From Acidobacteriota bacterium (GTDB lineage: Bacteria; Acidobacteriota; Terriglobia; Terriglobales; SCQP01), in assembly GCA_021818955.1 (NCBI GenBank), contig JAKASR010000017.1, positions 1 to 64,000 of the forward strand: a DNA stretch of 64,000 nucleotides, read 5' to 3'. The position numbers and the translations under genes were made by a program. This document shows, in pieces, positions 8,525 to 47,599 of the stretch (the stretch's first letter is position 1; every line of letters starts with the position of its first letter). The notes below the pieces were generated by a model. That model did no database searches. It was not told the DNA's origin and was given only the letters and a program-made list of their open reading frames with translations.

Positions 8525-9895
8525 ATGGCAACCCCGGCAATAGCTCCTCGCGATCTGATGGCCCGCATCCAGTCCCGCACCGCCGAGATTGGAGTAGTCG
8601 GCTTAGGCTACGTAGGCCTGCCTCTGCTGCTCACCTTCCACCGCGCCGGTTTTCCGGTCAGCGGCTTCGACCTCGATCCGGAGAAAATCGCGCGCTTGAA
8701 TCGCGGCGAAAGCTACATCCGGCATCTCGGCGCGGAAGCGGTCGCCGCGGCGCGGGCCGCCGGGCGCTTCCGCGCCACCGGTGATTTCTCCGCGTTGCGC
8801 CACATGGACGCCATTATCGTCTGCGTCCCGACGCCGCTGAACGAAACCCAGGAGCCGGATCTCAGCTTTATCCAGGCTACCGGCCGCACCATCGCGCAAT
8901 ACCTGCAGCCGGGGCAACTGGTGTGCCTCGAAAGCAGCACCTATCCGGGCACGACCGAAGAAGTACTGTTGCCGTTGCTGGAAGCCAGTGGCCTGCACTG
9001 CTCGCTTGATGCCGTCTCCGCCGGCAGTGCCGCCATTCCGCCGGCCCTCGAGTTTTATCTCGGCTATTCCCCCGAGCGCGAAGACCCCGGCAATAAACGC
9101 TACACCACCCAAAGCATCCCCAAGCTGGTGGCCGGACGCAATGCCGCTTCGGCCGGGCGGGTGGAGGCGCTCTATGCATCGGCCTTCGAAAAGGTTGTCC
9201 GCGTTTCCTCGCTGCAAGTGGCGGAGATGGCCAAGATTCTGGAAAACACCTATCGCGCCGTCAATATTGCCCTGGTGAACGAACTCAAGCAGCTCTGTCT
9301 CCGCATGGGTATTGATATTTGGGAAGTCATTGACGCCGCCGCCACCAAGCCCTTCGGCTACCAGCCCTTTTATCCCGGCCCCGGCTTAGGCGGCCATTGC
9401 ATTCCGATTGATCCGTTTTACCTGGCTTGGAAGGCCAAGCAGCATGACTTCACAGCCCGCTTGATCTATCTGGCCGGCGAGATCAACACGGAAATGCCTT
9501 ATAAGGTGATCGAAGCGGTCTTCAACGGCCTGAATCGCTCGCACAAGGCGGTCAACGGGGCCCGCATCCTGGTGCTCGGTGTGGCCTATAAAAAGGATAT
9601 TGACGATTTGCGGGAATCGCCCGCATTAAAGATCATCGCGCTATTGCGTAAACTCGGAGCTCAGGTGGACTACCACGATCGCTTCTGTCCGGAGGTGCGT
9701 CCGGGCCGGCAAAACGATTTCCACCTGCGCTCGATTGAATTCACTCCCGCTGCCGCCGCGTCCTATGATTGCGTGCTGATCGCTACCGATCATTCCGGCC
9801 TGGATTACGCCGCCATCGCCGCCCACGCCCCGCTGGTGGTGGATACTCGCAACGTCACCCGCGGTCTTCACTCCCCGCATGTCATCCGCTGCTGA
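8525..9895 (+). CDS. nucleotide-sugar dehydrogenase (UDP-GlcNAc/ManNAc 6-dehydrogenase type)
   Basis: Oxidises C6 of a UDP-sugar to the uronic acid with two NAD+. Rossmann motif GVVGLGYVGLPLLLTFHRAG starts near residue 22. A central helical domain holds EMAKILENTYRAVNIALVNE, and the catalytic Cys is in GLGGHCIPIDPFY (about residue 292). The C-terminal domain has LGVAYKKDIDDLRESPALKI. The sequence style matches the WbpA/TviB/WecC group rather than UDP-glucose dehydrogenase. The ATG at 8525 is preferred over a TTG at 8513. The product would be a natural substrate for the amidotransferase-type AsnB proteins in the locus. With wecB at 49444, UDP-ManNAcA is one possible product. Confidence 0.88.
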   Translation: MATPAIAPRDLMARIQSRTAEIGVVGLGYVGLPLLLTFHRAGFPVSGFDLDPEKIARLNRGESYIRHLGAEAVAAARAAGRFRATGDFSALRHMDAIIVCVPTPLNETQEPDLSFIQATGRTIAQYLQPGQLVCLESSTYPGTTEEVLLPLLEASGLHCSLDAVSAGSAAIPPALEFYLGYSPEREDPGNKRYTTQSIPKLVAGRNAASAGRVEALYASAFEKVVRVSSLQVAEMAKILENTYRAVNIALVNELKQLCLRMGIDIWEVIDAAATKPFGYQPFYPGPGLGGHCIPIDPFYLAWKAKQHDFTARLIYLAGEINTEMPYKVIEAVFNGLNRSHKAVNGARILVLGVAYKKDIDDLRESPALKIIALLRKLGAQVDYHDRFCPEVRPGRQNDFHLRSIEFTPAAAASYDCVLIATDHSGLDYAAIAAHAPLVVDTRNVTRGLHSPHVIRC

Positions 9896-9933
9896 ATCCT
9901 GGTCTTCCCCCCGCCGCCTCTCGTCCATACCCC

Positions 9934-11127
9934 ATGCCGGAAATCTGCTACGCGTCCGCTGCCTCCCAGGGCGATGCCGCCGTCGTATCTGCCGCCACCG
10001 GCCCGCGAAATCAGCCGCGCCGCGTGCTGCTGCTGTTGGGCGAATTGGCGACCGGCGGCGGAGGCATCGAAAGCTTCAATGCCAGTGTGCTAGCTGCGCT
10101 GCGCGGGCACGGCGACGGGGGCGCCATTGTGGCGCTCAACGATCCCCGCCGCGGTTCCGCGCCGGAGTTGACTTCGGGCTGGAGTTATTACCCCTGTGGC
10201 GGACGCCACCGGCGCCTCGCCCAGCTGCGCTTTGCGGGCACAGCCTTCGCCTGCGCCTTGCGCCATCGCCCGCTCTTCGTGTTTTGCGGGCATCTGAATT
10301 TTTTGGTCTTGGTGCGCGCGCTGCGCCTGCTGTTGGGCATCCGCTGTGTGGCCATGCTTTACGGCATCGAGGCTTGGTCGCCGCGCGGGCGCGCTATCGC
10401 CTGGGCCATGCGCGGCGAGGCGCATTACCTGGCCATCAGCCGCTATACCCGCGACCGCTGCCTGGCCTGGGCGCCGCTGCGGGCCGGACAAATTGGCCTG
10501 CTGCCTTGCACCTTCGATGCCCGCCGTTTCTCTCCCCAGCCCAAATCGGCGCGCCTCGTGCGGCAATACCGTTTGGAAGGCAAGCGCGTTCTGCTGACCG
10601 TCGCCCGGCTTTCCGCCTTGGAGCGTTATAAAGGCCACGAACAGGTGCTGCGCGCGCTCGCCCGCCTTCGCTCCGCTCATCCGGAGCTCTGTTATCTGAT
10701 CGTCGGCGACGGCGATTACCGGCCGGAACTGCAGCGGCGGGCGCGGGAATTGGGCGTGGCGGAAATCACTATCTTTGCCGGCCGCGTCCCGGCGGACGAG
10801 CTGGCCGCTTATTACAACCTTTCCGACGCCTTTATCATGCCCAGTCGGGGTGAAGGCTTCGGCATCGTCTTTCTCGAAGCCCTGGCCTGCGGCAAGCCGG
10901 TGATCGCCGGCAACGGCGACGGCGCCCGCGATGCGCTCTTGGATGGCGAGCTGGGCTGGCTGGTCGATCCGGAAGATTCCCCGGCCATGGCCCGCGCCAT
11001 TCTGGATGCGCTGGCGCCGGATCAGGCCGAGCCGCGCCGCAATCCCGCCTTTTTGCGGCGGCGAACGCTGGAAGCTTTTGGGCCCGAGGCCTTCAGCCGG
11101 CGCCTGCTGGCGGCTTTGCCATGTTGA
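9934..11127 (+). CDS. glycosyltransferase family 4 (GT-B)
   Basis: 397 aa. The N-terminal acceptor domain opens with RVLLLLGELATGGGGIESFN, the Gly-rich nucleotide-proximal loop of retaining GT-B enzymes. The donor domain has LLTVARLSALERYKGHEQV, then LIVGDGDYRPEL and the E-x7-E signature in EGFGIVFLEALACGKPVI. Start chosen at 9934, just after the dehydrogenase stop at 9895; the longer open frame upstream overlaps the dehydrogenase and is not conserved-looking. Sugar donor unknown. Likely a cytoplasmic, membrane-associated step in repeat-unit assembly. Confidence 0.88.
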   Translation: MPEICYASAASQGDAAVVSAATGPRNQPRRVLLLLGELATGGGGIESFNASVLAALRGHGDGGAIVALNDPRRGSAPELTSGWSYYPCGGRHRRLAQLRFAGTAFACALRHRPLFVFCGHLNFLVLVRALRLLLGIRCVAMLYGIEAWSPRGRAIAWAMRGEAHYLAISRYTRDRCLAWAPLRAGQIGLLPCTFDARRFSPQPKSARLVRQYRLEGKRVLLTVARLSALERYKGHEQVLRALARLRSAHPELCYLIVGDGDYRPELQRRARELGVAEITIFAGRVPADELAAYYNLSDAFIMPSRGEGFGIVFLEALACGKPVIAGNGDGARDALLDGELGWLVDPEDSPAMARAILDALAPDQAEPRRNPAFLRRRTLEAFGPEAFSRRLLAALPC

Positions 11128-11175: not shown

Positions 11176-12180
11176 GTGAAACGTTTGCCCTCGCATCGCA
11201 TGCTTTATTTCCCCCGCGCCGATTTTTGGGTCGCTCCCGAGGCGCTGGGGACCTATTCACGCTGGGCCTTAAAACGCCATTTGCAAGCCGGAGGCGGATG
11301 GCGCGGAATGGCGCAATATTTCCGGCATCCCTCCCGTCCCGCGAATCCGACTGATGCCGTCGCTCACTGCCTGGCGCGGGCCCGCCTGCTGCACGTTGAG
11401 CCGGCCTGGCTGCGCGGTCACACCGATGGCACGCGCGTGCAGGTCTTTGACCGCCGCGGTGACCGCATTGCGCAGTTGGCGCTGGGCGACCGGGCCCGGC
11501 GTTTTATGCGGCGCGAGTTATGGGCGCGCCGGCGCGCTCAGGACCTGGCGCCGCGCATTTTGCATTCGTCCCCGGACGCTAGCGGGTATGTGGAGGAATG
11601 GGTGCCGGCCCGTTTCCAGCGTTCTTCCCCCAGCCGGCAACTGCCGCTCATCCTGGAGCAATTGCAAGCCCGCTTCTATCGGCCGCGGCCGCTGGCGTTG
11701 GCGCCCTTCGTGCGCCGGCTTAGCCGGTTGTGTCCCCTCCAGCCGCTGGAAACGCGGGCGATCGATATCGCCGCGGTGTGCTTGCAAAATCGGCCGCTGC
11801 GGGTGAGCTGGGTGCATGGCGATTTGTGGACCGGCAATATCCTGCTCGATCGCCACGGCAAATATGTCTTCCTTGACTGGGAATACACCCGCCCGAGCCT
11901 GGTTACGGCGGATGCCTGGTTCTATCTTTATCACCGCCTCCGGCTGGAGGCCGGCGACCCCGCCGCCTTTCGGCGTGGCCTGCACGCCGTCTTGCGGCAA
12001 TGCTACGGCATGGAGCACGAGTTGGATGTGCGGGCCTGCCATCTGCTGCATCTGGTCGAGCGCCGCCTGCTGCTGCGCAGCCTGGGCCAGCTCGGCTCGC
12101 GGCAATATGCGCTGCTCGAACTGGATATTCGCTCCGAACTTCAATCCGCCCCGCTGCAGTCCCGCCGGATGGCCGTCTAA
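11176..12180 (+). CDS. APH/choline-kinase-like phosphotransferase
   Basis: 334 aa from a GTG at 11176, or 326 aa from the ATG at 11200; neither has a good ribosome-binding site. The kinase core is clear: WVHGDLWTGNILLD (Brenner-type catalytic loop, with the catalytic Asp in HGD) and, about 15 residues later, FLDWEYTRPSLVTADAW, the metal-binding Asp. This is the fold of aminoglycoside and choline phosphotransferases. In a polysaccharide locus it more likely phosphorylates a sugar or an alcohol decoration than an antibiotic. It stands immediately before a nucleotidyltransferase/nucleotide-kinase fusion. Substrate unknown. Confidence 0.7.
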   Translation: MKRLPSHRMLYFPRADFWVAPEALGTYSRWALKRHLQAGGGWRGMAQYFRHPSRPANPTDAVAHCLARARLLHVEPAWLRGHTDGTRVQVFDRRGDRIAQLALGDRARRFMRRELWARRRAQDLAPRILHSSPDASGYVEEWVPARFQRSSPSRQLPLILEQLQARFYRPRPLALAPFVRRLSRLCPLQPLETRAIDIAAVCLQNRPLRVSWVHGDLWTGNILLDRHGKYVFLDWEYTRPSLVTADAWFYLYHRLRLEAGDPAAFRRGLHAVLRQCYGMEHELDVRACHLLHLVERRLLLRSLGQLGSRQYALLELDIRSELQSAPLQSRRMAV

Positions 12181-12282
12181 ACCCGCCTCCGGTCTTGGAC
12201 ACTCCGCCACCGCGGCGCTTTTAATTCCAGGCCTGGCCTTGAGCCTGGGCCAATCGCTTCAAGACCGTTGCCCCCCAAAATT

Positions 12283-13530
12283 ATGGCCACCAGCACCCAG
12301 CCTGAATTTCGCTTGAGCGAGTTGTTCCAGCAGGATCCGGGAAGCACTTTTCAGCGGCTTTGGGAGCGCATTCAGGCAATCGCCCCCGATGCCTTTCTCA
12401 TGCGCGCTCCCATCCCCTCGGCCGAACCCTTTGAAACCGCCGGCGGCCGCGATCTGGATATATTGCTGAGCGACCAAAGCATCCCGCCGGTGCGCGACTT
12501 CCTTTTGCAGGAAGGTTTCCGCCTGGAATACGCCCGCCCGAGTTATTTGGCAAGGTACCGGCTTCGCTTGCCTCAATTTCCCGGTCCCGTGGGAGTGGAT
12601 CTCTACCGGGCGCGCGCCTGGGGCGACGGCTACCTGGCCTCGCCTTCGGTTCATATGACGCCGATTGCCGGCCTCCTGCTCCGCGCGGTTGTGGATGGCA
12701 AAGGCCCGGGCTATTTCGCGCAACGCAGCCAGGACGCCACTCCCGCCATCCAATTGGGGGAACGGGTGTTGAGCGGCTCTCGCCTGCTGACGCTGCGGGG
12801 CCTGCTCCTCCGTGGGGTGGTCAAGCCGGATCTTCGCTGGCTGGCGCGGACGGGCTTGCGCCGGCTGGGACATCTGTTGCACCGCTTGCGTCACCATTCT
12901 GGATTGGAAATCTGCCTGCTCGGCGTGGATGGCACGGGTAAAACCAGCGTGGCCGCGGGCCTGGCCGCCATGAGCCCGATCGTGCGCACCATTTATCTCG
13001 GCGACAATTTTTGCTCCTGGCCCGTCCGCTTTGTGCGGCGCTTTTCCCTGCCCCGCCCGCTGCCGCAAATGGCGCGTCATTTCGAGCTGTTTACTCGCCG
13101 CCTCAAAGGCCTCATCCTGGCGCGCCGCGGCTACATTGTGGTGTACGATCGCCATCCCATGGAACGGCTGGCGATCGCCCCTCGCACCTTTCGGGAACGA
13201 TTCAATAACCTGATGGCGCGTGCTTACGCCCGCCCGGTGGATTTTATTTATTGGTTTCAAGGCGATCCGCAGCGGTTATGGGAACGCAAAAAAGAGCATC
13301 CTCCGGAAAAATTGCGCGATTTGAATGACCTGCTGGACCGTATGCTGCGCTCGCGTGCCATGCTCTTCGAATCCATCGACGTTGTCGCCAACGGCTTGCC
13401 CGAAGTCTTGCGCCTCGTCAGTCGAGACATGGTTGCCCGCTACAGCCGTCATCTGGATATTGCCCGCGTTCCCGGCCTGTCGGGAAAATTGATGCGAACC
13501 GCCGCAATCATGCCGCCACGGGCGGTTTAA
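12283..13530 (+). CDS. fusion of nucleotidyltransferase-like and thymidylate-kinase-like domains
   Basis: 415 aa. The first half has the nucleotidyltransferase-like pattern GGRDLDILLS (about residues 48-57) and a second acidic strand GVDLYRA (about 104), as in small MNT-type nucleotidyltransferases acting on sugars or phosphates. The second half has a P-loop LLGVDGTGKTSVA (about 211-223) and a kinase-like VVYDRHPMERLAI (DR-type motif, about 285), resembling thymidylate-kinase-fold proteins. The ATG at 12283 is preferred over a TTG at 12268. Together with the APH-like kinase just upstream it could make and activate a phosphorylated building block; this is inference. Confidence 0.6.
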   Translation: MATSTQPEFRLSELFQQDPGSTFQRLWERIQAIAPDAFLMRAPIPSAEPFETAGGRDLDILLSDQSIPPVRDFLLQEGFRLEYARPSYLARYRLRLPQFPGPVGVDLYRARAWGDGYLASPSVHMTPIAGLLLRAVVDGKGPGYFAQRSQDATPAIQLGERVLSGSRLLTLRGLLLRGVVKPDLRWLARTGLRRLGHLLHRLRHHSGLEICLLGVDGTGKTSVAAGLAAMSPIVRTIYLGDNFCSWPVRFVRRFSLPRPLPQMARHFELFTRRLKGLILARRGYIVVYDRHPMERLAIAPRTFRERFNNLMARAYARPVDFIYWFQGDPQRLWERKKEHPPEKLRDLNDLLDRMLRSRAMLFESIDVVANGLPEVLRLVSRDMVARYSRHLDIARVPGLSGKLMRTAAIMPPRAV

Positions 13531-13626
13531 GCCTGCGGCCTCGATTCGCCGCAAAATCCACTGCTGGCGCCGGCGGTGCTCGCGCCGGCTCTTTTTTTCA
13601 AGCTAGCACTCCTGCTCGGATCTCCT

Positions 13627-14637
13627 ATGAACTTTGAAAACCAATCCATTCTGATCACTGGCGGCACCGGCTCCTTCGGCAAAAAATTTGTCGAAATCGT
13701 GCTCGCCGAATACTCGCCCAAGCGGCTGGTCGTCTTCAGCCGCGATGAGCTGAAGCAGCACGAAATGCGGCAGCGTTTCCCCGACAGCGGCAGCTCGCCG
13801 GTGCGCTACTTTGTCGGCGACGTGCGCGACCGCGACCGCCTGATGCGCGCCTTTCACGGCGTTGACGTGGTGGTGCACGCGGCCGCGCTCAAGCAGGTGC
13901 CGGCCTGCGAGTACAACCCCTTCGAAGCGGTGCAAACCAATATCATGGGCGCCAAAAACGTGATTGACGCGGCCATCGATTCCGGCGTTAGCCGCGTGCT
14001 CGCGCTCTCCACCGACAAGGCGGTCAACCCCGTCAATCTCTATGGCGCCACCAAGCTGGTGGCGGAAAAGCTCTTTATCCAGGGCAACGCCTATGCCGGC
14101 GGACGCGGCGCGCGCTTTGCCTGCGTCCGCTATGGCAATGTGATCGGCAGCCGCGGCAGCGTGGTGCCGCTGTTTGTCGAGCAGCGGAAATCCGGCCGCC
14201 TCACCCTCACCCATCCGGAGATGACCCGCTTCTGGATCACGCTCGAGCAGGGCGTGCGCTTCGTCATCCGGGGCATCGAGTTGATGCGCGGCGGCGAGAT
14301 CTTCGTGCCCAAGCTGCCCGCCTCCAGCATCCGGCAGTTGGCCGAAATCATCGGCCCCGACTGCCGCGTCGAGGTCACCGGCATCCGCCCGGGCGAGAAG
14401 CTGCACGAGGTGCTGATCGCCGATGGCGAGGCGCGCAATGCCGTCGAGCTGGATCACGCCTACGTCGTGCTGCCGCAGTTTTCCTGGTGGGATGGCGATG
14501 GCGCGCACCAGGGCCGCAAGCTGCCCGCCGACTTCTTCTATAGCAGCGACCGCGCCCGCCGGCTGACGGAAGAGGAAATCCGGCAATTGATTTCCGGCTT
14601 CCATCCCGCCGTCCGGGCGGCTGCCGTTTCGCAGTAA
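13627..14637 (+). CDS. pseB: UDP-GlcNAc 4,6-dehydratase (inverting), PseB type
   Basis: First enzyme of CMP-pseudaminic acid synthesis: converts UDP-GlcNAc to the 4-keto-6-deoxy-L-arabino sugar. 336 aa. NAD(P) motif ILITGGTGSFGKKFVE is followed by SRDELKQHEMRQRFP, both typical of PseB/FlaA1. The SDR catalytic region is ALSTDKAVNPVNLYGATKL, with the Thr-Asp-Lys and the YxxxK. Start is the ATG at 13627; a 17-residue upstream extension from GTG looks spurious. The downstream order pseC, pseGH, pseI, methylase, pseF confirms the pathway. CapD-type dehydratases are close relatives, but the context decides. Confidence 0.93.
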   Translation: MNFENQSILITGGTGSFGKKFVEIVLAEYSPKRLVVFSRDELKQHEMRQRFPDSGSSPVRYFVGDVRDRDRLMRAFHGVDVVVHAAALKQVPACEYNPFEAVQTNIMGAKNVIDAAIDSGVSRVLALSTDKAVNPVNLYGATKLVAEKLFIQGNAYAGGRGARFACVRYGNVIGSRGSVVPLFVEQRKSGRLTLTHPEMTRFWITLEQGVRFVIRGIELMRGGEIFVPKLPASSIRQLAEIIGPDCRVEVTGIRPGEKLHEVLIADGEARNAVELDHAYVVLPQFSWWDGDGAHQGRKLPADFFYSSDRARRLTEEEIRQLISGFHPAVRAAAVSQ

Positions 14638-14656: not shown

Positions 14657-15868
14657 ATGAAACCGGCATCCAGCTTCGCGGAAAAACTGGCCTTGGAAGG
14701 CGGCGTCCCGGTGCGCTCCACCCTCCTGCCCTATGGCCATCAGGTGATTGAAGATGCCGATATCGCCGCCGTAACGGAGGCCTTGCGCTCCGATTTCCTC
14801 ACCACCGGTCCGGAGGTGGAGCGTTTTGAGCAGGCGGTCGCGCAAATCTCCGGCGCCCGCTACGCCATCGCGGTCAGCAACGGCACCGCCGCGCTGCATG
14901 CCGCCGTGGCCGCGCTGGATCTGTCGCCGGAAGACGAAGTCATTGTCCCCGCCCTCACCTTTGCCGCCAGCGCCAATTGCGTGCGCTATTGCGGCGCGCG
15001 CGTCGTTTTTGCCGACGTGCGGCCCGATTCGCTGACGCTCGATCCCGCCGCTGTCCGCGCCGCCGTCACCCCCCGCGCCAAAGCCGTCATCGCCGTGGAT
15101 TTCGCCGGCCAGCCGGCCGATTATGCCGAGTTGCGGGAACTCGCCTCGCGCCACCATCTGGCCCTCATCGCTGATGCCGCGCATTCCCTCGGCGCCCGCT
15201 ATCGAGACCGCCCCTCCGGCAGCCTGGCCTTGATGACCACCTTCAGCTTTCATCCCGTCAAGCACATCACCACCGGCGAAGGCGGCATGATCGTCACCTC
15301 CGATGAGCGCCTGGCCGCGCGCCTGCGCCGCTTCCGCAACCACGGCATCGCCACCGATTTCCGCCAGCGCGAGGCCGGCGGCGACTGGTTTTACCGCATG
15401 GAAATGCTCGGCTTCAACTATCGGCTCAGCGATCTGCAATGCGCCCTCGGCCGGGCGCAACTGCAACGCCTGCCGCGGTGGCTCGACCGGCGCCGGGCGC
15501 TCGTGGCCGCTTACGGCGAAGCGCTGGCGGCGCAGCCGGCGCTGGAATTGCCCATCACCCTCCCCGGCCGCGATTCGGCCTGGCATCTCTATGTGGCGCG
15601 GCTCCGGTTGCCAAACCTGCGCTGGGAGCGCAAGCAAATCTTCCAGGCGTTGCGCGCGGAAAACATCGGCGTCAACGTGCATTACATACCCGTGCCCTGG
15701 CATCCTTATTACCAGCAACTCGGCTATCGTCGAGGCGACTGGCCGGTGGCGGAAGCCGAATACGAGCGCTTGCTCTCGCTGCCGCTCTGGGCCGGCATGG
15801 ACCGCGCCGATATCGGCGACGTCGCCCATGCCCTGCGCAAAGTGCTCGCCGCCGCCGGCGCCAATTAG
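14657..15868 (+). CDS. pseC: UDP-4-amino-4,6-dideoxy-N-acetyl-beta-L-altrosamine transaminase
   Basis: Second step of pseudaminic acid synthesis: PLP- and glutamate-dependent amination at C4. 403 aa, DegT/DnrJ/EryC1/StrS family. Visible features are LPYGHQVIEDADIAAV near the start, AVSNGTAALHAAVAAL, VPALTFAASANCVRY and the PLP lysine in TFSFHPVKHITTGEGGM (about residue 200). The HPVK sequence, as opposed to the plain NxxK of other DegT enzymes, is characteristic of PseC. It begins 19 nt after pseB and is followed by pseG-pseH with 2 nt between stop and start. Confidence 0.93.
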   Translation: MKPASSFAEKLALEGGVPVRSTLLPYGHQVIEDADIAAVTEALRSDFLTTGPEVERFEQAVAQISGARYAIAVSNGTAALHAAVAALDLSPEDEVIVPALTFAASANCVRYCGARVVFADVRPDSLTLDPAAVRAAVTPRAKAVIAVDFAGQPADYAELRELASRHHLALIADAAHSLGARYRDRPSGSLALMTTFSFHPVKHITTGEGGMIVTSDERLAARLRRFRNHGIATDFRQREAGGDWFYRMEMLGFNYRLSDLQCALGRAQLQRLPRWLDRRRALVAAYGEALAAQPALELPITLPGRDSAWHLYVARLRLPNLRWERKQIFQALRAENIGVNVHYIPVPWHPYYQQLGYRRGDWPVAEAEYERLLSLPLWAGMDRADIGDVAHALRKVLAAAGAN

Positions 15869-15870
15869 CC

Positions 15871-17421
15871 ATGCCGGCTCCGTCCAAAAGCTCGCCGGCT
15901 TCTCCTCCGGTGCTGCTCGTGCGCGCCGATGCCGGCCCCGCCATCGGCCTCGGCCACGCCATGCGCTGCCTCGCCCTGGCGCAAGCCTGGCGGGATCAGG
16001 GCGGCGGGGTGCATTGGCTGGGGGCCGCCGGGTTTCCCTCCTCGTTGCGCCAGGATTTGCGCCGGCAAGGCATCGTTTTTTCCGGGCTGCGCGTTCGCCC
16101 GGGCAGCGTTCGGGATGCCGCCCGGACCGTTGCCCTCGCCCGCCGCTGCCGCGCCGGCTGGGTGCTGCTGGATGGCTATCGTTTCAAAGCCGATTTTCAG
16201 GCGGCCATCAAAAAAGCCGGCTTGCAACTCTTCTGTCTCGATGATGACGGCTCTGCCAGGCGTTACTGGGCCGATTGCGTTTTGAATCAAAACGCCGTGG
16301 TTGCGCCCGCGCTTTACCGCCGCCGCGCGCCTGGTACTCGGCTGCTGTTGGGCCCGTCCTATGCGCTGCTGCGCCGCGAAATCCTGCTTTGCCCGGCCCC
16401 GCGCCGCATTCGCCCCCGCGCCCGGCGCTTGTTGATCTGTTTGGGCGGGGGCGGCTCGGCCTCCGTTTCTATGCGGCTGCTGCAGGCGCTGGCTGAATGC
16501 GAGCTTCCGCCCTTGCAAATCGTCCACTTCATCGGCGCAAATGAGGCTCGAGGCCATCGCTTGGCTAAACTGGTCTGGCCTTCATCCTGGCGGCTTCGTC
16601 TGGAGCATGATCCGCGCCGCCTGCCGGAATATATGGCCTGGGCGGATGTCATCCTCGCCGGCGCCGGCGTTACCTCCTTGGAAAGCGCCTTTCTAGGCTT
16701 GCCTTCGGGGCTGGTGCTGATGGCGAAAAATCAGCTTGCCAATTTTCAAGGCTTGGCCCGGGCCGGTGCCGCGGTGCGGCTGGCTCGCTATCCGCATTTT
16801 CGTTTCAAGCTGGCTCTTCTGCGGAAATTGCTCCAGGATCCCGGGCGGCGTCGCCGCATGTCCATCGCCGGCCGCAAGCTGGTGGATGGCCAAGGAGTTT
16901 GGCGCTGTCTCCAGGCCATGGGTTTGCCGCCGGTGCGGTTTCGTCCCGCCGAAGCCCGCGATTGCCGCCGGGTTTGGCAATGGGCCAACGAGCCCCATAC
17001 CCGCCGCAATTCCTTTCATTCCGAGCCGATTCCCTGGCCAACCCATCAGGCCTGGTTTAACCGCATACTTCGCCATCGCTCGTCCCGGCTCTGGATCGCG
17101 CATGCGCCCGATGGCAACCCGATTGGACAGCTTCGCTTCGAATCGGCCCGCCGCGGTGAATATGTCCTCAGCGTGGGTTTAGCCCCCGCATGGCGTGGCC
17201 AGGGCTATGGCCGGCGCGTGATCGAAGCGGGGGTGGCGGAATTGTTTCGCTCCGATCATTGCCGTGGCGTTCATGCCTATTGCAAACCTTCCAATCCCGC
17301 CGCCAACCGTAGTTTTGCCGCGGCGGGATTCGTTAATTTGGGGGTGGCAACGGTTTCCGGCCAGCCGGCCATTCATTGGCTCGCCCTGCCTCCAGCCGCC
17401 GCGCGGTCACGGTCTGCATGA
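15871..17421 (+). CDS. PseG-PseH fusion: UDP-sugar hydrolase plus N-acetyltransferase
   Basis: 516 aa. Residues about 10-345 match PseG, the GT-B-fold hydrolase that releases UDP from the 2,4-diacetamido sugar: RADAGPAIGLGHAMRCLALA with the conserved GHxMR, then LICLGGGGSASVSMRLLQAL and VILAGAGVTSLESAFLGLP. Residues about 350-516 are a GNAT domain with VRFRPAEARDCRRVWQWAN and SVGLAPAWRGQGYGRRVIE, matching PseH, which acetylates N4. The order of action is PseH then PseG, so the fused protein carries out steps 3 and 4. Start at 15871, right after the pseC stop; a longer frame beginning inside pseC is rejected. The stop overlaps the pseI start. Confidence 0.88.
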   Translation: MPAPSKSSPASPPVLLVRADAGPAIGLGHAMRCLALAQAWRDQGGGVHWLGAAGFPSSLRQDLRRQGIVFSGLRVRPGSVRDAARTVALARRCRAGWVLLDGYRFKADFQAAIKKAGLQLFCLDDDGSARRYWADCVLNQNAVVAPALYRRRAPGTRLLLGPSYALLRREILLCPAPRRIRPRARRLLICLGGGGSASVSMRLLQALAECELPPLQIVHFIGANEARGHRLAKLVWPSSWRLRLEHDPRRLPEYMAWADVILAGAGVTSLESAFLGLPSGLVLMAKNQLANFQGLARAGAAVRLARYPHFRFKLALLRKLLQDPGRRRRMSIAGRKLVDGQGVWRCLQAMGLPPVRFRPAEARDCRRVWQWANEPHTRRNSFHSEPIPWPTHQAWFNRILRHRSSRLWIAHAPDGNPIGQLRFESARRGEYVLSVGLAPAWRGQGYGRRVIEAGVAELFRSDHCRGVHAYCKPSNPAANRSFAAAGFVNLGVATVSGQPAIHWLALPPAAARSRSA

Positions 17422-18461
17422 TTACCATAGGTCAGCGAAAAATCGGCGCCGGCCAGCCCGCCTATATCATTGCCGAGCTTTCGGCCAATCATGGCCGGCA
17501 GTTCGACCAGGCGGTCAGGCTGGTTCATCTCGCCCATGGCGCCGGCGCGGATGCGATCAAGCTGCAAACTTACACCCCCGACACCCTAACCCTGAAATCC
17601 GACAAGCCTTGCTTTCGGGTTTCCGGCAACACGCTCTGGGACGGCCGCACCCTCCACGATCTCTACGCCGAAGCCTATACCCCCTGGGAATGGCAGCCGG
17701 AATTGCAAGCCATCGCCAACCGGCTCGGCATGGATTTGTTCTCTTCCCCCTTCGATCCCACCGCCGTGGATTTCCTCGAGCAAATGCGGGTCCCGGCCTA
17801 CAAGCTGGCCTCCTTCGAGTTGGTGGATATTCCCCTGATTCAATATATGGCGCGCACCGGCAAGCCCCTGATCGTCTCCACCGGCATGGCGTCGCTCGAT
17901 GAAATTGACGAAGCTGTGACCGCCGCCCGCGCCGCCGGGGCAAGCCAGATCGCGCTGCTGCACTGCAATAGCGCCTATCCCGCCCCCCCGGAAGAAATGA
18001 ACCTGCGCGCCATCCCCATGCTGCGGGCGCGCTATGGCCTGCCCGTTGGCCTTTCCGATCACACTCTCGGCATTGCCGCCGCCATTGCCGCCATCGCCCT
18101 GGGCGGCTGCATCATCGAAAAGCATTTCACCGAATCCCGCGCGGTTCCCGGCCCCGACAGCCCCTTCTCGCTCGAGCCGGCGGAATTTCAGCGGATGGTC
18201 GAGGCGGTGCGCATCGCGGAAAAAGCCCTGGGCCGCCCCGAGTTGGGCGATCGCCAGCGGGAAAGTTCCAGCCGCCGCTTCCGGCGCTCGCTCTTCGTCG
18301 TGAAAGACGTACGCGCCGGCGAGCCTTTCACCGCGGATAATGTGCGCTCCATCCGCCCCAACCTCGGCCTGCATCCCCGCCATTTGCCCGAAGTGCTGGG
18401 CCAGGCGGCCGCCTGCGATCTGGAAGCCGGCACGCCGCTGGAGTGGAAGCATCTCCGTTGA
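17418..18461 (+). CDS. pseI: pseudaminic acid synthase
   Basis: Condenses the 2,4-diacetamido-2,4,6-trideoxy-altrose with phosphoenolpyruvate to give pseudaminic acid. 347 aa. NeuB-family TIM barrel with AYIIAELSANHGRQFDQAV, GADAIKLQTYTPDTLTLKSD (typical PseI wording), VSTGMASLDEI and HTLGIAAAIAAIALGGCIIE. A C-terminal SAF/antifreeze-like domain spans about residues 285-345 (FVVKDVRAGEPFTADNVRSI). Start ATG 17418 overlaps the pseG-pseH stop (ATGA), which implies coupled translation. Confidence 0.94.
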   Translation: MITIGQRKIGAGQPAYIIAELSANHGRQFDQAVRLVHLAHGAGADAIKLQTYTPDTLTLKSDKPCFRVSGNTLWDGRTLHDLYAEAYTPWEWQPELQAIANRLGMDLFSSPFDPTAVDFLEQMRVPAYKLASFELVDIPLIQYMARTGKPLIVSTGMASLDEIDEAVTAARAAGASQIALLHCNSAYPAPPEEMNLRAIPMLRARYGLPVGLSDHTLGIAAAIAAIALGGCIIEKHFTESRAVPGPDSPFSLEPAEFQRMVEAVRIAEKALGRPELGDRQRESSSRRFRRSLFVVKDVRAGEPFTADNVRSIRPNLGLHPRHLPEVLGQAAACDLEAGTPLEWKHLR

Positions 18462-19159: not shown

Positions 19160-19181
19160 AGCTTATAGCTTTTAGCTTATG
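19160..19181 (+). repeat. degenerate heptanucleotide repeat at the pseF start
   Basis: Three consecutive 7-mers, AGCTTAT-AGCTTTT-AGCTTAT, occupy 19160-19180. The last one runs into the pseF start codon (ATG 19179-19181), leaving no Shine-Dalgarno between repeat and start. Similar 7-nt periodic tracts with other unit sequences occur at 23519, 28059 and 34314. Confidence 0.65.
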
Positions 19182-19895
19182 TCCATCGTCGCCATTATTC
19201 CCGCGCGCGGCGGCAGCAAGCGCATCCCGCGCAAAAACCTGCGCCCGTTTTGCGGCAAACCGATGCTCGCCTGGAGCATCGAAGCGGCGCGCGCGGCGCG
19301 TGTCTTCGATAGCATCCTGGTCTCCACGGACGACGAAGAAATTGCCTCGCTGGCCGGGGCCCATGGCGCGGAAGCTCCCTTCCGCCGTCCGGCGGCGCTC
19401 TCCGATGATCACACCCCCACCCTGCCGGTGATTGCCCATGCGCTGGATTGGGTGCGCCGGAACCGCGGTCCGGTGAGCTTTGCCTGCTGTATCTATGCCA
19501 CCGCCCCGTTCTTGCAACCGCAATTTTTGCGTCAAGGCTTGCGCCTGCTCGAAAGTCATGCCGATGCCGAGTTCGCCTTCAGCGTGACCAGCTACGATTT
19601 CACCATCTTTCGTTCGCTCAAGCTCAATTCGGATGGAAGGGTGGCAATGTACTGGCCGGAAAACGAATTGAAACGCTCGCAGGATTTGCCCGAAGCCTGG
19701 CACGATGCCGGGCAATTCTATTGGGGCCGGCCGCAAGCCTTCGCCGCTCATCAAGGAGTGTTCACGGCGAGTTCCTATCCCGTCATTCTGCCCCGCCATC
19801 TGGTGCAGGATATTGATACGCCGGAAGATTGGCAAAGGGCGGAAGCCATGTTCTCAGCCCTGCGGCAATCTCAACCCGCCGGCCAAAATGCTTGA
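19179..19895 (+). CDS. pseF: CMP-pseudaminic acid cytidylyltransferase
   Basis: Activates pseudaminic acid with CTP, the last step before transfer. 238 aa, NeuA/KdsB-like nucleotidyltransferase fold: IIPARGGSKRIPRKNL at residues 6-21 binds CTP, followed by ILVSTDDEEIASLAGAHGAE. The late motif QDIDTPEDWQRAE is typical of PseF. The start lies within a heptanucleotide repeat with no evident ribosome-binding site, so its translation may depend on coupling or on structure. It completes the six activities PseB, C, H, G, I and F within 6.3 kb. Confidence 0.93.
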   Translation: MSIVAIIPARGGSKRIPRKNLRPFCGKPMLAWSIEAARAARVFDSILVSTDDEEIASLAGAHGAEAPFRRPAALSDDHTPTLPVIAHALDWVRRNRGPVSFACCIYATAPFLQPQFLRQGLRLLESHADAEFAFSVTSYDFTIFRSLKLNSDGRVAMYWPENELKRSQDLPEAWHDAGQFYWGRPQAFAAHQGVFTASSYPVILPRHLVQDIDTPEDWQRAEAMFSALRQSQPAGQNA

Positions 19896-25072: not shown

Positions 25073-26965
25073 ATGATGCAGGTTTCACCGGCGCCCCATC
25101 CGGCCCACGTGTTTCAAATCACGCTCAACTTGCGCGAGGCGGCGGCCGTTCTGGAGCAGGGCTTCGCCCAGGGGATTTCAGCCGAGGGGTCCCGTCTGGA
25201 AGTGCAGTCTAAGTTCGATCTGGGCCCTATGACTTTCTACGTGGCTGGACGTTTCTATTCCTGGAATCGACCGGGGGAATTCCAAGCCTGGTTACAACGA
25301 TTTTCGTCCGATAAAATTGCGGAATGGGCTCGCGAAGCTGACGGCGATTTCATGCTTATCGCCTGGGAACGCGACCGGCAGCGGGCCGTCCTGATAAGCG
25401 ACCGCAACGGCGCCAATCGCGTTTATTACACCCGCGACCGCGATTCCGTTTCCTTTTCTAATTCCTTATTCGATATCGCCCGGCTCGCCGCCGCTCCGCA
25501 TATCGACCCTTTCACCGCTTTTACCCTTCTGGTCTCCTTTTATGGCCTCGATCCTTATACCCTTATCGAATCGGTCCAATGTACCGCGCCGGGTGAAATC
25601 GTCGCTTTGGGCTTGGAAAATACCGCGGTCGCCTCTTACTATCTCCCGGTAAGCATTGAATCGGAATATTTTTCGACGCTCAAGGAATCGGTCCAGGCGC
25701 TTGGTCATTCTTTTAACTGGGTCTTCCAAAAGCGCGTCAGCGAATCGCGTACGCCCTGCGTCTTGCTCTCCGGCGGCATAGATTCGGTGGCCATGTTGCG
25801 GTATGTATCGGAATTCGCCTCTGGACGCGTTCATTCCCTCACCTTTTCGGTGCGGGGCCAGGCGGTTACCGAGCATCAGCCCGCGCGGCTCGCCGCCGCC
25901 CACTTTAATAGCCGGCATCATGAGTTGATCGTTGAGCCGGCTGATGCGGCGGCGCTCTATTTGCAATGTTTTGAGCAGCGCTCCACTCCGAATGTCGCCA
26001 CCATGCTGGCCTTGGCGCATCATAATTTTCTGTGCGCTACCGGCCTCCCTTACGACGTCTATTCCGGGGAGGATACCCGGCTTCATACTCCCGATTTCGA
26101 CCTGCCCAAGGAACTGGGCATTCGCTTGAATTTGTTGCGGAATCCGTCGCCGGCTTCCCTGCGTCTCCGTTCCCTGCTGGCCCGCATCCTGGAAGCCTGG
26201 CCGGTATATCCTAAAAATTACCTGAAATATTGGGCGCATGCGTTCCAGCCGCCCGTGTCTCGAGATCTTTTTGCGCTGCAATGCCTCTCCAAATTGGGAG
26301 GGCCTTCCGGTTATTCGCTCGCCTCCAGCCCCTGGCTTGATAAGTTCGTGCGCGAGCTTCCGCCGATTGCGCCGGACGATAATCTGCAGACGATATTCAA
26401 AAAGCATATCGCCGCGGGTTATCGCCTTCAGTACACCGACAACATGATCGAAAGCATGTTGGCGATAAATCGTCCGCAAACCGCCCTCCAAATGCCTTTT
26501 TATGATTGGGAAACCGTGGCGGTGGCCAATCGTATTCCCTATCGCATCGGAAAAAAAGGCGTCTTCACCCTGCGCACCTGGTCGAAATTTCCCCTGGTCA
26601 ACAAACGCGTGCTCCGCCAATGCCTCGAAGGCTCGGTGCCGAAATCGATTCTCTATCGCCGAAAAGCCACCGCCGGCGCCCTGGACGTATTCATTACGCC
26701 GCGCCTGTTGCGCCTGCTTGACCTTATCCTGTCGCATTGGCTGCCGGACCTCCTGCTTGGTTTGAATGATGAAGTGGCTGGCCTGGTCCGGGCTTATTTG
26801 AACGATTTTCGCCGTGCGCCTTCGCTGAACGCCGCGGGACAGCGCACCGTTTATGCGGTGCTCAATATTTGTCACATGGCGGTTTTAAATCAGGTCTGTA
26901 TCGATCGCGGCTTTAATCTGGATGAGCAAATGCGTCGCCTCTACGAAATGTCGGCTCATGCCTAG
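25073..26965 (+). CDS. asparagine-synthetase-related protein lacking the glutaminase cysteine
   Basis: 630 aa. The C-terminal ATP-pyrophosphatase domain is intact: PCVLLSGGIDSVAMLRYV (PP-loop, about residues 228-245), and YSGEDTRLHTPDFDL farther on. The N-terminal domain keeps the Ntn-hydrolase layout (ADGDFMLIAWERDRQRAVLISD) but begins MMQVSPAP, without the Met-Cys-Gly start, so glutamine cannot be hydrolysed in the usual way. GGGAGG precedes the ATG pair at 25073/25076. It may adenylate an acid and use ammonia or another amine, like AsnB-like proteins in lasso-peptide or polysaccharide pathways. Two Cys2-bearing paralogues are at 34368 and 42002. Confidence 0.75.
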   Translation: MMQVSPAPHPAHVFQITLNLREAAAVLEQGFAQGISAEGSRLEVQSKFDLGPMTFYVAGRFYSWNRPGEFQAWLQRFSSDKIAEWAREADGDFMLIAWERDRQRAVLISDRNGANRVYYTRDRDSVSFSNSLFDIARLAAAPHIDPFTAFTLLVSFYGLDPYTLIESVQCTAPGEIVALGLENTAVASYYLPVSIESEYFSTLKESVQALGHSFNWVFQKRVSESRTPCVLLSGGIDSVAMLRYVSEFASGRVHSLTFSVRGQAVTEHQPARLAAAHFNSRHHELIVEPADAAALYLQCFEQRSTPNVATMLALAHHNFLCATGLPYDVYSGEDTRLHTPDFDLPKELGIRLNLLRNPSPASLRLRSLLARILEAWPVYPKNYLKYWAHAFQPPVSRDLFALQCLSKLGGPSGYSLASSPWLDKFVRELPPIAPDDNLQTIFKKHIAAGYRLQYTDNMIESMLAINRPQTALQMPFYDWETVAVANRIPYRIGKKGVFTLRTWSKFPLVNKRVLRQCLEGSVPKSILYRRKATAGALDVFITPRLLRLLDLILSHWLPDLLLGLNDEVAGLVRAYLNDFRRAPSLNAAGQRTVYAVLNICHMAVLNQVCIDRGFNLDEQMRRLYEMSAHA

Positions 26966-29222: not shown

Positions 29223-30824
29223 ATGAATCCTCGTTACATCATCTTCAGTTGTCATGGCATTCAGTTGGATTGGTATGTTGCCATGGCGCCAATTTTGCGC
29301 CGGCGCGTGGGTTGGCGCAGCATGGCCTGGGTCGCGGGCCGGCGCGATTTTTTGCGGGCTCAATCGAGCGGCGCCTTCGATGAGGTGGTGGATGTAATTC
29401 AGGGCTTTGATCGCTTTGCCCCTGAGGTCGAAGCGCGGCATTCAGCCAATTTGGCGGGTTTGCGGGAATACGAGCTTCGCTTCGGCGATCTTCATTTTCA
29501 TGAAGATGCCTCCTTGGATCGTTGTTTGGGCGGCATTGGCGATGTCACCGTGAACTCCCTTCATTTCCGCAATCGCTGGCGTCCGGCGCAGATTGCCGCC
29601 GTCGCCTTGCACATGCTCCGGCGGATGGATGCCTCGCTCGCCGATAAGGAAGTGCTGCTGGCCTTGGGCGAGCACAATTCCTTGCGCTATCGCCTGGCTT
29701 GCTGGCTGCTGCAATCGAATGGGGCGCCGTATATCTGTCCTTATACCGTTTCCCATGCCCAGGGCCGCTTCTTTTTCGATAGCGTTGATAATGCCTGGCC
29801 TGCTTGTGAACAAGCCTATGCTCGTTGCCTCCAAGGTCTGGTTTCGTCCGAATCGCTGCGGCTTGCGGAACAACGCTGGCATCAAATCGTCGTCGAAAAG
29901 GCCAAGCCCAGCTACTTTGCCCAGGGCTCGCGCGGCGCGCCCGCTTTGAAAGAACGCCTCCAATGGCGCCGCTTGCTCGCGCACCTGCGGGAATGGCGCG
30001 AAGCGCGTTCCCCCGAACGGCTCTCCGATCCCGGCGCGCCGGCGCCGGAAATTCATTCGCCCGCGGCCTATCTCGCTCGCTACGGGTCCGGCCGCCGCCG
30101 CCGCCGCTATTATGAGCATCTGGTCTGCCGCCGGCTGCCTTCGCAAAAATACGCCGCTTACTTTCTGCATTCTCAGCCGGAATACACCATTGACGGGCTG
30201 GCGTTTGAATATCGCGATCAGGTGGCTTTTGTCAGAAATGTTGTCGCCAATCTCCCCGCCGATGTGCTGCTGCTGGTCAAGGAGCATCGCGCCGAGGCTG
30301 GCCGTCGCTCCGAATGGTTTTATGGCGAGTTGGTGTCCATCCCGAATGTCATCTTGGTGCATGATTTGATCAATGCCGCTGATATCATCCGTCAGGCGGC
30401 CTTGACCGTCACCCTGACCGGCACCGTCGCCCTGGAGTCGGTTTGCTTCGGTGTGCCCTGTGTCGTCTTTGGCAAGACCAATTACTCCATTTTCCGCGGC
30501 GTGTATAAGGTCCGCGGCTTTGCCCATTTCCGTGAGCTGACGCGCCAGCTCGATCAGCTCCGCCCCGCTACCCGTGAGGAAGCCGTCGCCGCCCTGGCCG
30601 CGCGCCTGGAAGTCTCCTATCCGGGGAATTTTTTACCCACTACCCCGGAGGATATTCGCATGCTGACGGAAGGCTTGATTCAGGAATGCCGGCGCCGGGG
30701 CATGCCGGTCGAGGAGTCTCCTCAGCCGGCGCTGCCGGAAGCGGAATCTCCGATGCAATTTGGGCAAGCCCATGTGACCGTTCGCGATTTGCAAATGCGG
30801 GCCGGCGCGGGGAGTAACCAATGA
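29223..30824 (+). CDS. capsule polysaccharide biosynthesis (KpsC/Kdo-transferase-like) protein
   Basis: 533 aa. No signal peptide. The C-terminal half has the GT-B capsule-synthesis pattern: DQVAFVRNVVANLPADVLLL followed by VKEHRAEAGRRSEWF, then VILVHDLINAADIIRQA and TVTLTGTVALESVCFGVPC with VVFGKTNYS. This resembles the Capsule_synth family, in which KpsC/KpsS act as Kdo transferases. The N-terminal 170 residues are less recognisable. The last bases overlap the start of the polymerase gene (ATGA). Donor not predictable. Confidence 0.7.
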   Translation: MNPRYIIFSCHGIQLDWYVAMAPILRRRVGWRSMAWVAGRRDFLRAQSSGAFDEVVDVIQGFDRFAPEVEARHSANLAGLREYELRFGDLHFHEDASLDRCLGGIGDVTVNSLHFRNRWRPAQIAAVALHMLRRMDASLADKEVLLALGEHNSLRYRLACWLLQSNGAPYICPYTVSHAQGRFFFDSVDNAWPACEQAYARCLQGLVSSESLRLAEQRWHQIVVEKAKPSYFAQGSRGAPALKERLQWRRLLAHLREWREARSPERLSDPGAPAPEIHSPAAYLARYGSGRRRRRYYEHLVCRRLPSQKYAAYFLHSQPEYTIDGLAFEYRDQVAFVRNVVANLPADVLLLVKEHRAEAGRRSEWFYGELVSIPNVILVHDLINAADIIRQAALTVTLTGTVALESVCFGVPCVVFGKTNYSIFRGVYKVRGFAHFRELTRQLDQLRPATREEAVAALAARLEVSYPGNFLPTTPEDIRMLTEGLIQECRRRGMPVEESPQPALPEAESPMQFGQAHVTVRDLQMRAGAGSNQ

Positions 30825-32359
30825 GCGCGGCTTTGCCGGTCGAAGTTTTGGCCGCGCCTCCTTCGCAACCATTGGCGCCGGCGAAATATGTCCCCTGCGC
30901 GCCCATCCTCGCTCCGTCTTCGCCGTTGGTGATCCGGCGCTGGTCCCTGCTCATTGCCTCGCTCTCGGCGGTGTTTTTTCTGCTGTCGTTTTCCATCCAT
31001 ATCCCCGTTTGGGATGTCTTGTCCGTATATGCCTTGTTTGCCTTCTCGATTGTGTTGTTGATGCTCAGTCCCTATACCCGTTCCAATCCTTTGCATCCGC
31101 TTTCCTTGATTATCTTTTTTGGCTTATTGAATTATGGTATTCGGGCTTTGGAAATTATCTATCTTCATTCGCCGGTCCAGAACCTGGTCAATCCCGAGCA
31201 TTATATCGCCAAGGCTTGTTTTTTGACGATCGTTTCCTTTGTCTTGCTTTTCCTGGGCTTTCATTTGAAATACGCTGGCAGCTTGGCCCGTCAGGTGCCT
31301 TTATTTGCTTTCCCCGTTCCCAAATCGCGCTTGAACGGCGTTCTCTTTCGTGCTTTTCTGTTCTTCCTTCTTACCGTCTATGCCAATTATCATGAAATCA
31401 GCCTGGGCGTAAGCCATTTTTATACGAGCCGGGCTGTTTTGCATAGTGGGTTGGATTCTGTTTTCCATGAAATCGCCTCCTACATAAATGTCACATTTTT
31501 GGCGTTCTTGCCGTTGTTTTTTCTGCGCAAATTCCCTCGGTATTTAATTCCCGGCATGATGGCGATCATGATGCTGATTGCCGCTGTTTCGGGCAGCTCG
31601 ACCAACCTGGTCATGCCGCTTGCCCTGCTGGCCATTGTCTTTTGGCTATGCCGCAAACCGCTCGCTTGGCCAAAATTTCTACAGATTTGGCTGTTCCTGA
31701 TCCTGGCCCTGGCGCCGCTGGTCTATGCCTGGCGCTATGTTTATTATGCTCAGGTTCAGGCTGGCGGCAGCTCCGCTTCCGCCGCGTTGTCTTCATTCGA
31801 TTCTGCCGCCGTCGTCGGAGGTTATTCTCAATCCGTCAATAATGTGTTGGCCCGTTTTGGCCGTTTGGATATGTTGTTGCTGGTGCTCAAAATGGTTCCC
31901 AGTCGCTATCCCTTTCAGTTTGGCAATACCTTTATGCCATATCTGGTGCAGATCTTCATGCCCAGGATCTTGTATGCCCATAAAAAAATCGTTGATGTCG
32001 GCACGGAATTCCGCTACCTGTTTCAAGGCTTGCGCGGAACCTCGAATATTTCACTCGGTTTCGTGGGCGAGACTTTTTTTAATTTTGGTTATTTCGGCAT
32101 GGCGCTGGCCTTTCCCGTGGGGATGCTGATTCGCTTTTTCTGGGATCGTCTGCTCGCCTATAGCCGCATCGAGCCGATGTGGGCCTGGCGCTTATACTTT
32201 GTCGTTTTCTTGGCTTGCCTCGGCTACGATTCTACTTTGATTTATTATTTCGCCACCTTGTTGCGTGGCCCGCTGGTGTTGTATTTGATCATGATGTTTG
32301 TCTTTCTGCGCTTGCCTAAGCGCGTCTCCTGGAAGTGGTTTGAAGCGCTGTCAACCTGA
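30821..32359 (+). CDS. Wzy-like polysaccharide polymerase (multi-spanning membrane protein)
   Basis: 512 aa with about twelve hydrophobic segments after a soluble N-terminal stretch of about 40 residues. It has the features of O-antigen/EPS polymerases: a long periplasmic loop and clustered Arg residues, for example VNNVLARFGRLDMLLLVLKMV and LFQGLRGTSNISLGFVGETFFNFG. Sequence conservation in this family is low, so the call rests on topology and position. It overlaps the upstream KpsC-like gene by 4 nt. The protein at 7128 is the alternative polymerase candidate. Confidence 0.7.
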   Translation: MSAALPVEVLAAPPSQPLAPAKYVPCAPILAPSSPLVIRRWSLLIASLSAVFFLLSFSIHIPVWDVLSVYALFAFSIVLLMLSPYTRSNPLHPLSLIIFFGLLNYGIRALEIIYLHSPVQNLVNPEHYIAKACFLTIVSFVLLFLGFHLKYAGSLARQVPLFAFPVPKSRLNGVLFRAFLFFLLTVYANYHEISLGVSHFYTSRAVLHSGLDSVFHEIASYINVTFLAFLPLFFLRKFPRYLIPGMMAIMMLIAAVSGSSTNLVMPLALLAIVFWLCRKPLAWPKFLQIWLFLILALAPLVYAWRYVYYAQVQAGGSSASAALSSFDSAAVVGGYSQSVNNVLARFGRLDMLLLVLKMVPSRYPFQFGNTFMPYLVQIFMPRILYAHKKIVDVGTEFRYLFQGLRGTSNISLGFVGETFFNFGYFGMALAFPVGMLIRFFWDRLLAYSRIEPMWAWRLYFVVFLACLGYDSTLIYYFATLLRGPLVLYLIMMFVFLRLPKRVSWKWFEALST

Positions 32360-34303: not shown

Positions 34304-34313
34304 TGCTCTTCGC

Positions 34314-34361
34314 CCACTCCTGTCTTCTGTCTTCTGTCTTATTTTCCTGTCTCCTGCCTCC
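34314..34361 (+). repeat. pyrimidine-rich heptanucleotide repeat upstream of asnB
   Basis: Units CCACTCC, TGTCTTC, TGTCTTC, TGTCTTA lie in phase (34314-34341). After a 6-nt spacer come TGTCTCC and TGCCTCC (34348-34361), then ATG at 34368. The plus strand is nearly pure pyrimidine, so this junction lacks any Shine-Dalgarno. Confidence 0.7.
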
Positions 34362-34367
34362 TTCTTT

Positions 34368-37030: not shown

Positions 37031-37088
37031 AGCGGATCATGAATGGTTCCGTATTCATTTTCTTTCTTCTTTAGCTATTTTTGTTCAT

Positions 37089-47589: not shown

Positions 47590-47599
47590 CTCATCCGAA

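Follow-up and report, generated by a model that had tools for sequence, protein, structure and literature searches.

A diverged kinase pair in an Acidobacteriota polysaccharide locus and its possible kinship with a recurrent NTase-thymidylate-kinase/APH/GT4 gene set

The window analyzed here, a 64,000-nucleotide stretch of DNA from an Acidobacteriota bacterium, encodes an APH/choline-kinase-fold phosphotransferase followed by a two-domain protein that joins a nucleotidyltransferase-like (NTase-like) half to a thymidylate-kinase-fold (TMK) half. Genes of these kinds, usually with a GT4-type glycosyltransferase, recur in polysaccharide loci, where they lie close together on the same strand and are in some organisms fused. 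We give about an even chance to the reading that the pair in the window represents a divergent version of this recurrent set, in which the kinases would act in relay to make a phosphorylated unit. The features of the region are listed below.

9769..11127, + strand (start codon unsure): GT4-type glycosyltransferase (Pfam Glycos_transf_1, 3.4e-38)
11176..12180, + strand: APH/choline-kinase-fold phosphotransferase, 334 aa (Pfam APH, 45.7 bits; model resembling LicA)
11815..11838, + strand: APH catalytic loop HGDLWTGN (alignment of 65 rows)
12283..13530, + strand: NTase-like/thymidylate-kinase-like two-domain protein (415 aa from ATG 12283; 420 aa from TTG 12268)
12283..12876, + strand: NTase-like half (DxD at 12451-12459, third Asp at 12598-12600)
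12898..13437, + strand: TMK half (P-loop GVDGTGKT at 12922-12945; match to 2plr)
13569..13589, + strand: terminator-like hairpin of 7 G-C pairs with a T run, just 3' of the kinase pair
13576-14637: Polysacc_synt_2 (Pfam)
14657-15868: DegT (Pfam)
15895-17421: GNAT (Pfam)
17376-18461: NeuB and SAF (Pfam)
19179-19895: CTP_transf_3 (Pfam)

Both open reading frames (ORFs) of the pair were confirmed on the + strand where the initial annotation had placed them. That annotation had described a small-molecule kinase, an NTase-like domain, and a P-loop kinase lying together; the first was borne out by Pfam and the last by the fold of its model, whereas the NTase-like half was not recovered by any profile. 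The GT4, APH, and NTase-TMK genes stand in a row and are followed by the terminator-like hairpin, which we take as a hint only because such sites are not in overall excess in the region (8 observed against 6.1 +/- 2.9 in shuffles). The Pfam domains downstream of the pair fit a nonulosonic-acid pathway, a name that is our reading of the domains. The pair was also considered as an obligatory part of this downstream nonulosonate operon, a proposal that we rejected given the terminator-like hairpin in between.

Genes without a Pfam assignment were named by eye. The 508-aa ORF at 15895-17421 ends in a GNAT domain, and its N-terminal part has a weak Glyco_tran_28_C match only; it resembles a PseG-PseH fusion. 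Further along the window, three asparagine-synthase-type ORFs lie in the polysaccharide locus (25073-26965, with a weak GATase part, 34224-36239, and 42002-43981), two adjacent ORFs of 512 and 647 aa (30821-32359 and 32360-34303) had no Pfam match at E <=0.001, and a 702-aa fusion joins a GT4 to a YdjC-type domain (36999-39107). The stretch 45322-50586 holds a 755-aa ORF with Zn-dehydrogenase-like and GFO/IDH parts, followed by heparinase II/III and UDP-GlcNAc 2-epimerase genes; a 763-aa ORF found near an NTase-TMK fusion in another genome (L052:5277-7568) is close to it in size.

The Pfam score of the APH protein exceeds the cut-off for PF01636 (23.2 bits). Its AlphaFold2 model (mean pLDDT 80.9) had choline kinase LicA (4r77) as its best fold match (Z 15.1, rmsd 3.7, 225 residues aligned); eukaryotic choline kinases and fructosamine-3-kinase trailed LicA by no more than 1 Z unit, and glucosamine kinase and maltokinase structures were also among the matches. 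Fold and catalytic loop are thus alike in the window protein and in LicA and other APH-fold kinases, but identity to LicA amounts to 12% over the aligned residues. The catalytic-loop H, D, and N are invariant in the 65 aligned APH rows, in which the family form of the loop is HGDFxPWN, and the window protein keeps H214, D216, N221, D234, E236, and D246. At the position of the N-lobe Lys, which we take to be an ATP-contacting residue, 60 of 64 rows have Lys and the window has Gln100; the Lys of one further upstream column is also absent. In a quick tree, the APH of the window (branch 2.5) grouped toward the APHs of the set with an SH-aLRT of 89, which is below the program's mark of 95, and a generic APH (L187) falls on the same side. 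In the APH tree, an open frame of 686 codons from the window's own genome (L190, contig C45) pairs with a related 689-aa ORF with a C-terminal APH-type domain from a congener, genome G301 (L055:7973-10042).

The full 420-aa protein (12268-13530) passed no Pfam cut-off. In its model (pLDDT 76.2), residues 205-387 match dTMP kinase 2plr (Z 18.0, rmsd 2.8, 182 aligned); the TMK half filled the fold-match list, and the NTase half lies outside that comparison. The window protein and its family share fold, P-loop, and DR motif with thymidylate kinases (2plr and 2ccj), but base-side residues are replaced in the family, and the window protein reached 11.7 bits with the TIGR00041 thymidylate kinase profile, for which the cut-off is 83.25; on these grounds we rejected a dTMP kinase identity. 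PF02223 gave no match in the window protein either, though 51 of 59 family rows match it at E <=0.01. The window TMK half keeps the P-loop Lys, the DR, and the RK-E residues and is altered at the HxRP, D299, D304, R307, and Q352 of the family. The loss of catalytic residues, which the initial annotation had named as a point against its own reading, is accordingly partial: the APH loop is intact, whereas the N-lobe Lys has become Gln and most of the residues that the family conserves on the presumed acceptor side of the TMK half are replaced. With its acceptor sites changed, the window copy probably acts on a different substrate or has partly degenerated.

The NTase-like half keeps D62, D64, and D111 (420-aa numbering), which are conserved at 99, 99, and 97%, respectively, in 74 rows including the window. 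In the model, two of these Asp lie on a predicted strand at 57-62 and one on a strand at 102-109, within a mixed strand/helix core. Scored against the window, a leave-window-out NTase profile covered the DxD stretch only and was not significant (hmmsearch, 1.2 bits, E 0.012 in a one-sequence database); hhalign of this profile with the window half gave a probability of 1.7%, a PDB profile search with the half reached a best E of 0.16, and NTP_transf_5 (PF14907) had no match in the window protein. From the three Asp, the layout, and the model, we describe the N-terminal half as NTase-like, and this is the weakest part of the assignment.

Searches with the single window sequences matched few of the 297 genomes of the phylum: three for the fusion, the window's own included, and one for the APH protein, again the window's own. 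The two other fusion matches are complete NTase-TMK fusions whose loci abound in ORFs that by eye resemble glycosyltransferases. A three-row fusion profile matched 27 of the 297 genomes, most over part of the protein only. The genome collection was then surveyed with a profile built from the window, the two phylum relatives, and three more sequences, and the loci of the best 80 of 191 confirmed relatives were fetched. According to our reading of the record titles, these loci span Bacillota, Bacteroidota, Cyanobacteriota, Nitrospirota, Pseudomonadota, Acidobacteriota, Verrucomicrobiota, Actinomycetota, Chloroflexota, and others. Two archaeal MAGs are also among the best 80 of 191, one with all three genes (L136) and the other with split parts and no GT4 (L096).

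Both domains were found in one ORF in 69 of these 80 loci, while the other 11 had no single ORF covering the profile. An APH-like gene was present in 53 of the 69 full-length fusion loci from the best 80 of 191, as a separate ORF in 52 and within the same ORF in one; 51 of the 52 separate ORFs are on the strand of the fusion and 37 lie within 300 bp. A GT4 with the signature AYACxPxxGSEP (GSEP family) stood out in 43 survey loci, and its profile exceeded 200 bits in 53 of the same 69. Within the fetched stretches, 50 fusion loci had both APH and GT4, 3 had APH alone, 3 had GT4 alone, and 13 had neither (Fisher p 7e-9 for co-occurrence, on rows that are not independent). When at least 5 kb was available on both sides of the fusion, the APH was present in 42 of 50 loci. 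Contiguous trios occurred in 38 of the 69; with N for NTase-TMK, A for APH, and S for the GSEP GT4, their orders were NAS (29), NSA (4), SAN (3), and ANS (2). Near-copies among the survey loci (e.g., L071/L074 and L081/L086) mean that these counts are not independent, and the conservation counts leave out L050, L051, L053, and L054, which duplicate L103, L130, L065, and L064, respectively. One Flavobacterium locus (L125:7829-10756) has two full-length NTase-TMK ORFs before its APH and GT4 genes.

Plasmids also carry such genes. Agrobacterium leguminum p1 has the fusion and a phosphotransferase within one exopolysaccharide locus, and Leisingera sp. M527 has an APH-like ORF one gene from the fusion. 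In the Legionella adelaidensis plasmid NZ_LR134429, a TMK-type gene overlaps one labeled "phosphotransferase", and an acylneuraminate cytidylyltransferase is encoded nearby, an arrangement that recalls the setting of the window. In these three plasmid loci, the fusion or TMK-type gene is annotated as "hypothetical protein" and the APH as "phosphotransferase" in two cases and "hypothetical protein" in one.

Natural domain fusions tie the same genes together. With our own profiles, NTase, TMK, and APH were found in one 870-aa ORF (L085), and TMK and APH in one 572-aa ORF preceded by a separate NTase-like ORF (L127); Pfam gave sub-threshold TMK matches only for these two loci, plus a sub-threshold choline-kinase match for L127. 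A 792-aa ORF joins APH to GT4 (L084), both halves being confirmed by Pfam. Their occurrence in different organisms speaks for a single process to which the domains contribute. Genes of these kinds thus recur side by side more than chance would allow, and APH and GT4 genes return beside the fusion where the initial annotation had allowed that homologues might always keep unrelated company. It had also seen no precedent for the grouping in exopolysaccharide loci; its observation holds, the supposed uniqueness does not, and the interest lies in the set as a whole.

Two controls addressed whether the set is a general part of export loci. The first comprised 40 loci (671 kb) anchored on the exporter family PF02563, one per genome of this phylum. 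None matched the APH or the fusion profile, no APH appeared even at E <=10 with a profile able to find generic APHs, and no GT4 scored above 113.8 bits with the GSEP-GT profile. The 40 genomes were taken from 44 exporter-positive ones, leaving out G053 and the known fusion carriers G000, G004, and G047, so that the selection accounts for part of the fusion's absence. The exporter of G004 is ~6 kb from the set's APH, and its stretch would have counted as APH-positive. These stretches are also shorter than many set stretches, reaching at least 15 kb in 26 of 40. The second control used 20 set-carrying genomes, hand-picked from those behind the 80 survey loci, of which 15 have PF02563, at 42 places, and 40 stretches were fetched. 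Eight of them had a fusion-profile match (seven full-length fusions and a 213-aa TMK-only ORF, L258); all eight contain APH and seven contain GT4. The other 32 had none of fusion, APH, or GT4 and hold the information of this control, since the eight positives, recognized by shared contigs or identical scores, were already in the survey. Export loci do not as a rule carry APH and GT4 genes of the set's kind.

The APH and fusion profiles used in survey and controls had been trained on set members that included the window copy, and leave-window-out scoring was therefore run. The window fusion protein then scored 39.9 bits (E 5e-11), essentially over the linker and the TMK half. The APH of the window reached 50.4 bits, with five generic APHs of relatives scoring higher, up to 59.9. 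Like the loci of the set (e.g., L078, L076, L090, and L111), the window has an APH gene adjoining an NTase-TMK gene on the same strand in a polysaccharide locus, and the NTase triad, the P-loop, and the APH catalytic loop are kept in both. Unlike them, it is without the APH Lys, its TMK half is at best 25% identical to those of fusion members, and its GT4 is of another kind. Indeed, the upstream GT4 (9769-11127) scored 76.8 bits with the GSEP-GT profile, with which control-locus ORFs reach 113.8, and by this measure is not of the recurrent GSEP family. Full membership of the pair in the set was considered and is weakened by the leave-window-out scores and by the GT4 profile.

The closest relative of the window TMK half is found in genome G499 (P0004, L048:9528-10190), with 37% identity over 188 residues and a YDRHP motif common to both. 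In contrast to the window protein, it stands alone, with no fused NTase and no APH match in ~58 kb. At this locus (L048:9528-13454), the TMK-like gene ends 5 bp ahead of a gene for a 2-hydroxyacid dehydrogenase; next come a gene for PEP mutase and a 430-aa ORF, which has no Pfam match and by eye resembles ATP-grasp proteins. The arrangement may represent a phosphonate branch within polysaccharide genes. A profile made from the TMK half of the window protein and its G499 counterpart retrieved only those two at E <=1e-6 in 397 genomes of the order. Searched with the window fusion alone, genome and viral contig collections gave no relative; a plasmid search gave none of either window protein, and a phage search with a typical fusion gave none.

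The pair could also be chance neighbors, an unrelated APH beside an orphan TMK-like gene, or a decaying remnant. Both proteins are divergent, the APH has lost its Lys to Gln and scores only generically, and none of the 13 other genomes of the family, several of them incomplete, had a fusion match at E <=0.01. Against this, neither frame is interrupted, the two-domain protein retains the NTase triad and the P-loop residues of its TMK half, and the three Akkermansia loci of the survey have the window's own order, GT4-APH-NTase/TMK. Moreover, APH genes are rare in export loci (0/40), which makes a chance adjacency unlikely, and on balance we find chance or decay rather unlikely. We prefer to see the pair as a strongly diverged, partial version of the set that probably works likewise, and not as a member of it; the generic APH score, the Lys100-to-Gln change, the altered TMK residues, the other GT4, and the stand-alone G499 relative are our reasons for this wording.

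Enzymes of the APH fold transfer phosphate to hydroxyls and those of the TMK fold to phosphate monoesters, so that one molecule could pass through both kinases in turn. Judging from its fold family, the APH-fold enzyme would phosphorylate a hydroxyl of a sugar or polyol, and the TMK-fold domain may then act on the phosphate so made, placing the kinases in relay. The NTase-fold domain would turn their product into a phosphodiester or nucleotide-type intermediate, the GT4 would work on the same substrate or product, and the polysaccharide repeat would thereby receive a phosphorylated or phosphate-linked unit. A joint route to a phosphorylated component, as proposed in the initial annotation, is reasonable because the gene neighborhoods tie such genes to one another in polysaccharide loci; its chemistry is what we infer.

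In the family alignment, an acidic/Arg-rich stretch of the D...DPxRYR type, placed after the DRY motif of thymidylate kinase, is aligned with AYQG of the Staphylococcus aureus TMK, which we take to be its thymidine side. As far as the alignment goes, the replaced stretch fits a phosphorylated acceptor other than dTMP. It therefore makes a plain dTMP kinase unlikely and speaks against a salvage scheme in which the APH would make a sugar-1-phosphate, the NTase an NDP-sugar, the GT4 would transfer the sugar, and the TMK would rephosphorylate the released nucleotide. That the NTase half matches no sugar-1-P pyrophosphorylase family in Pfam points the same way. The APH superfamily does include anomeric sugar kinases, such as NahK and maltokinase, the glucosamine kinase and maltokinase fold matches are in line with this, and a GT4 is part of the set, but we still hold salvage to be unlikely.

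The scheme could also run as in LicD or lasso-peptide systems, where a kinase makes a phosphate ester and an NTase-fold domain adds a glycosyl or phospho unit. For the lasso peptide pseudomycoidin, a review names PsmK as the phosphorylating enzyme and PsmN as the one that attaches hexoses to the phosphorylated Ser, and it leaves open that PsmN is a true nucleotidyltransferase (PMC9266682). In both this system and the set, a kinase stands beside an NTase-type protein acting on a phosphate, which makes PsmK/PsmN the nearest functional analogy among the systems compared, but the PsmK/PsmN substrate is a peptide. PsmK is an HprK-type kinase, and the system is not known to include a TMK domain. LicA as the best fold match of the APH model agrees with such a scheme, as does a faint similarity of the NTase halves to NTP_transf_5 (3 of 59 match at E <=0.01, best 0.0074). 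Yet the member scanned stayed below the cut-off of this family (16.3 versus 31.2 bits), to which PsmN itself probably belongs (PF14907), and the window neighbors scanned include no CDP-choline-type partner; we consider this scheme improbable as well.

Our search of open-access literature brought up no account of an NTase-TMK/APH/GT4 set. The broader proposal, that NTase-TMK, APH, and GT4 form a general pathway in which a sugar or polyol would be phosphorylated twice in relay and coupled by the NTase step into surface polysaccharides, with a version of changed substrate beside the nonulosonate pathway in the window, is less likely than not and offered tentatively. A set traveling as a unit across phyla would indicate that surface polysaccharides are assembled by way of a common step that has no name yet, and its defined composition, together with the natural fusions, provides a direct route to identify the phosphorylated component that is made.
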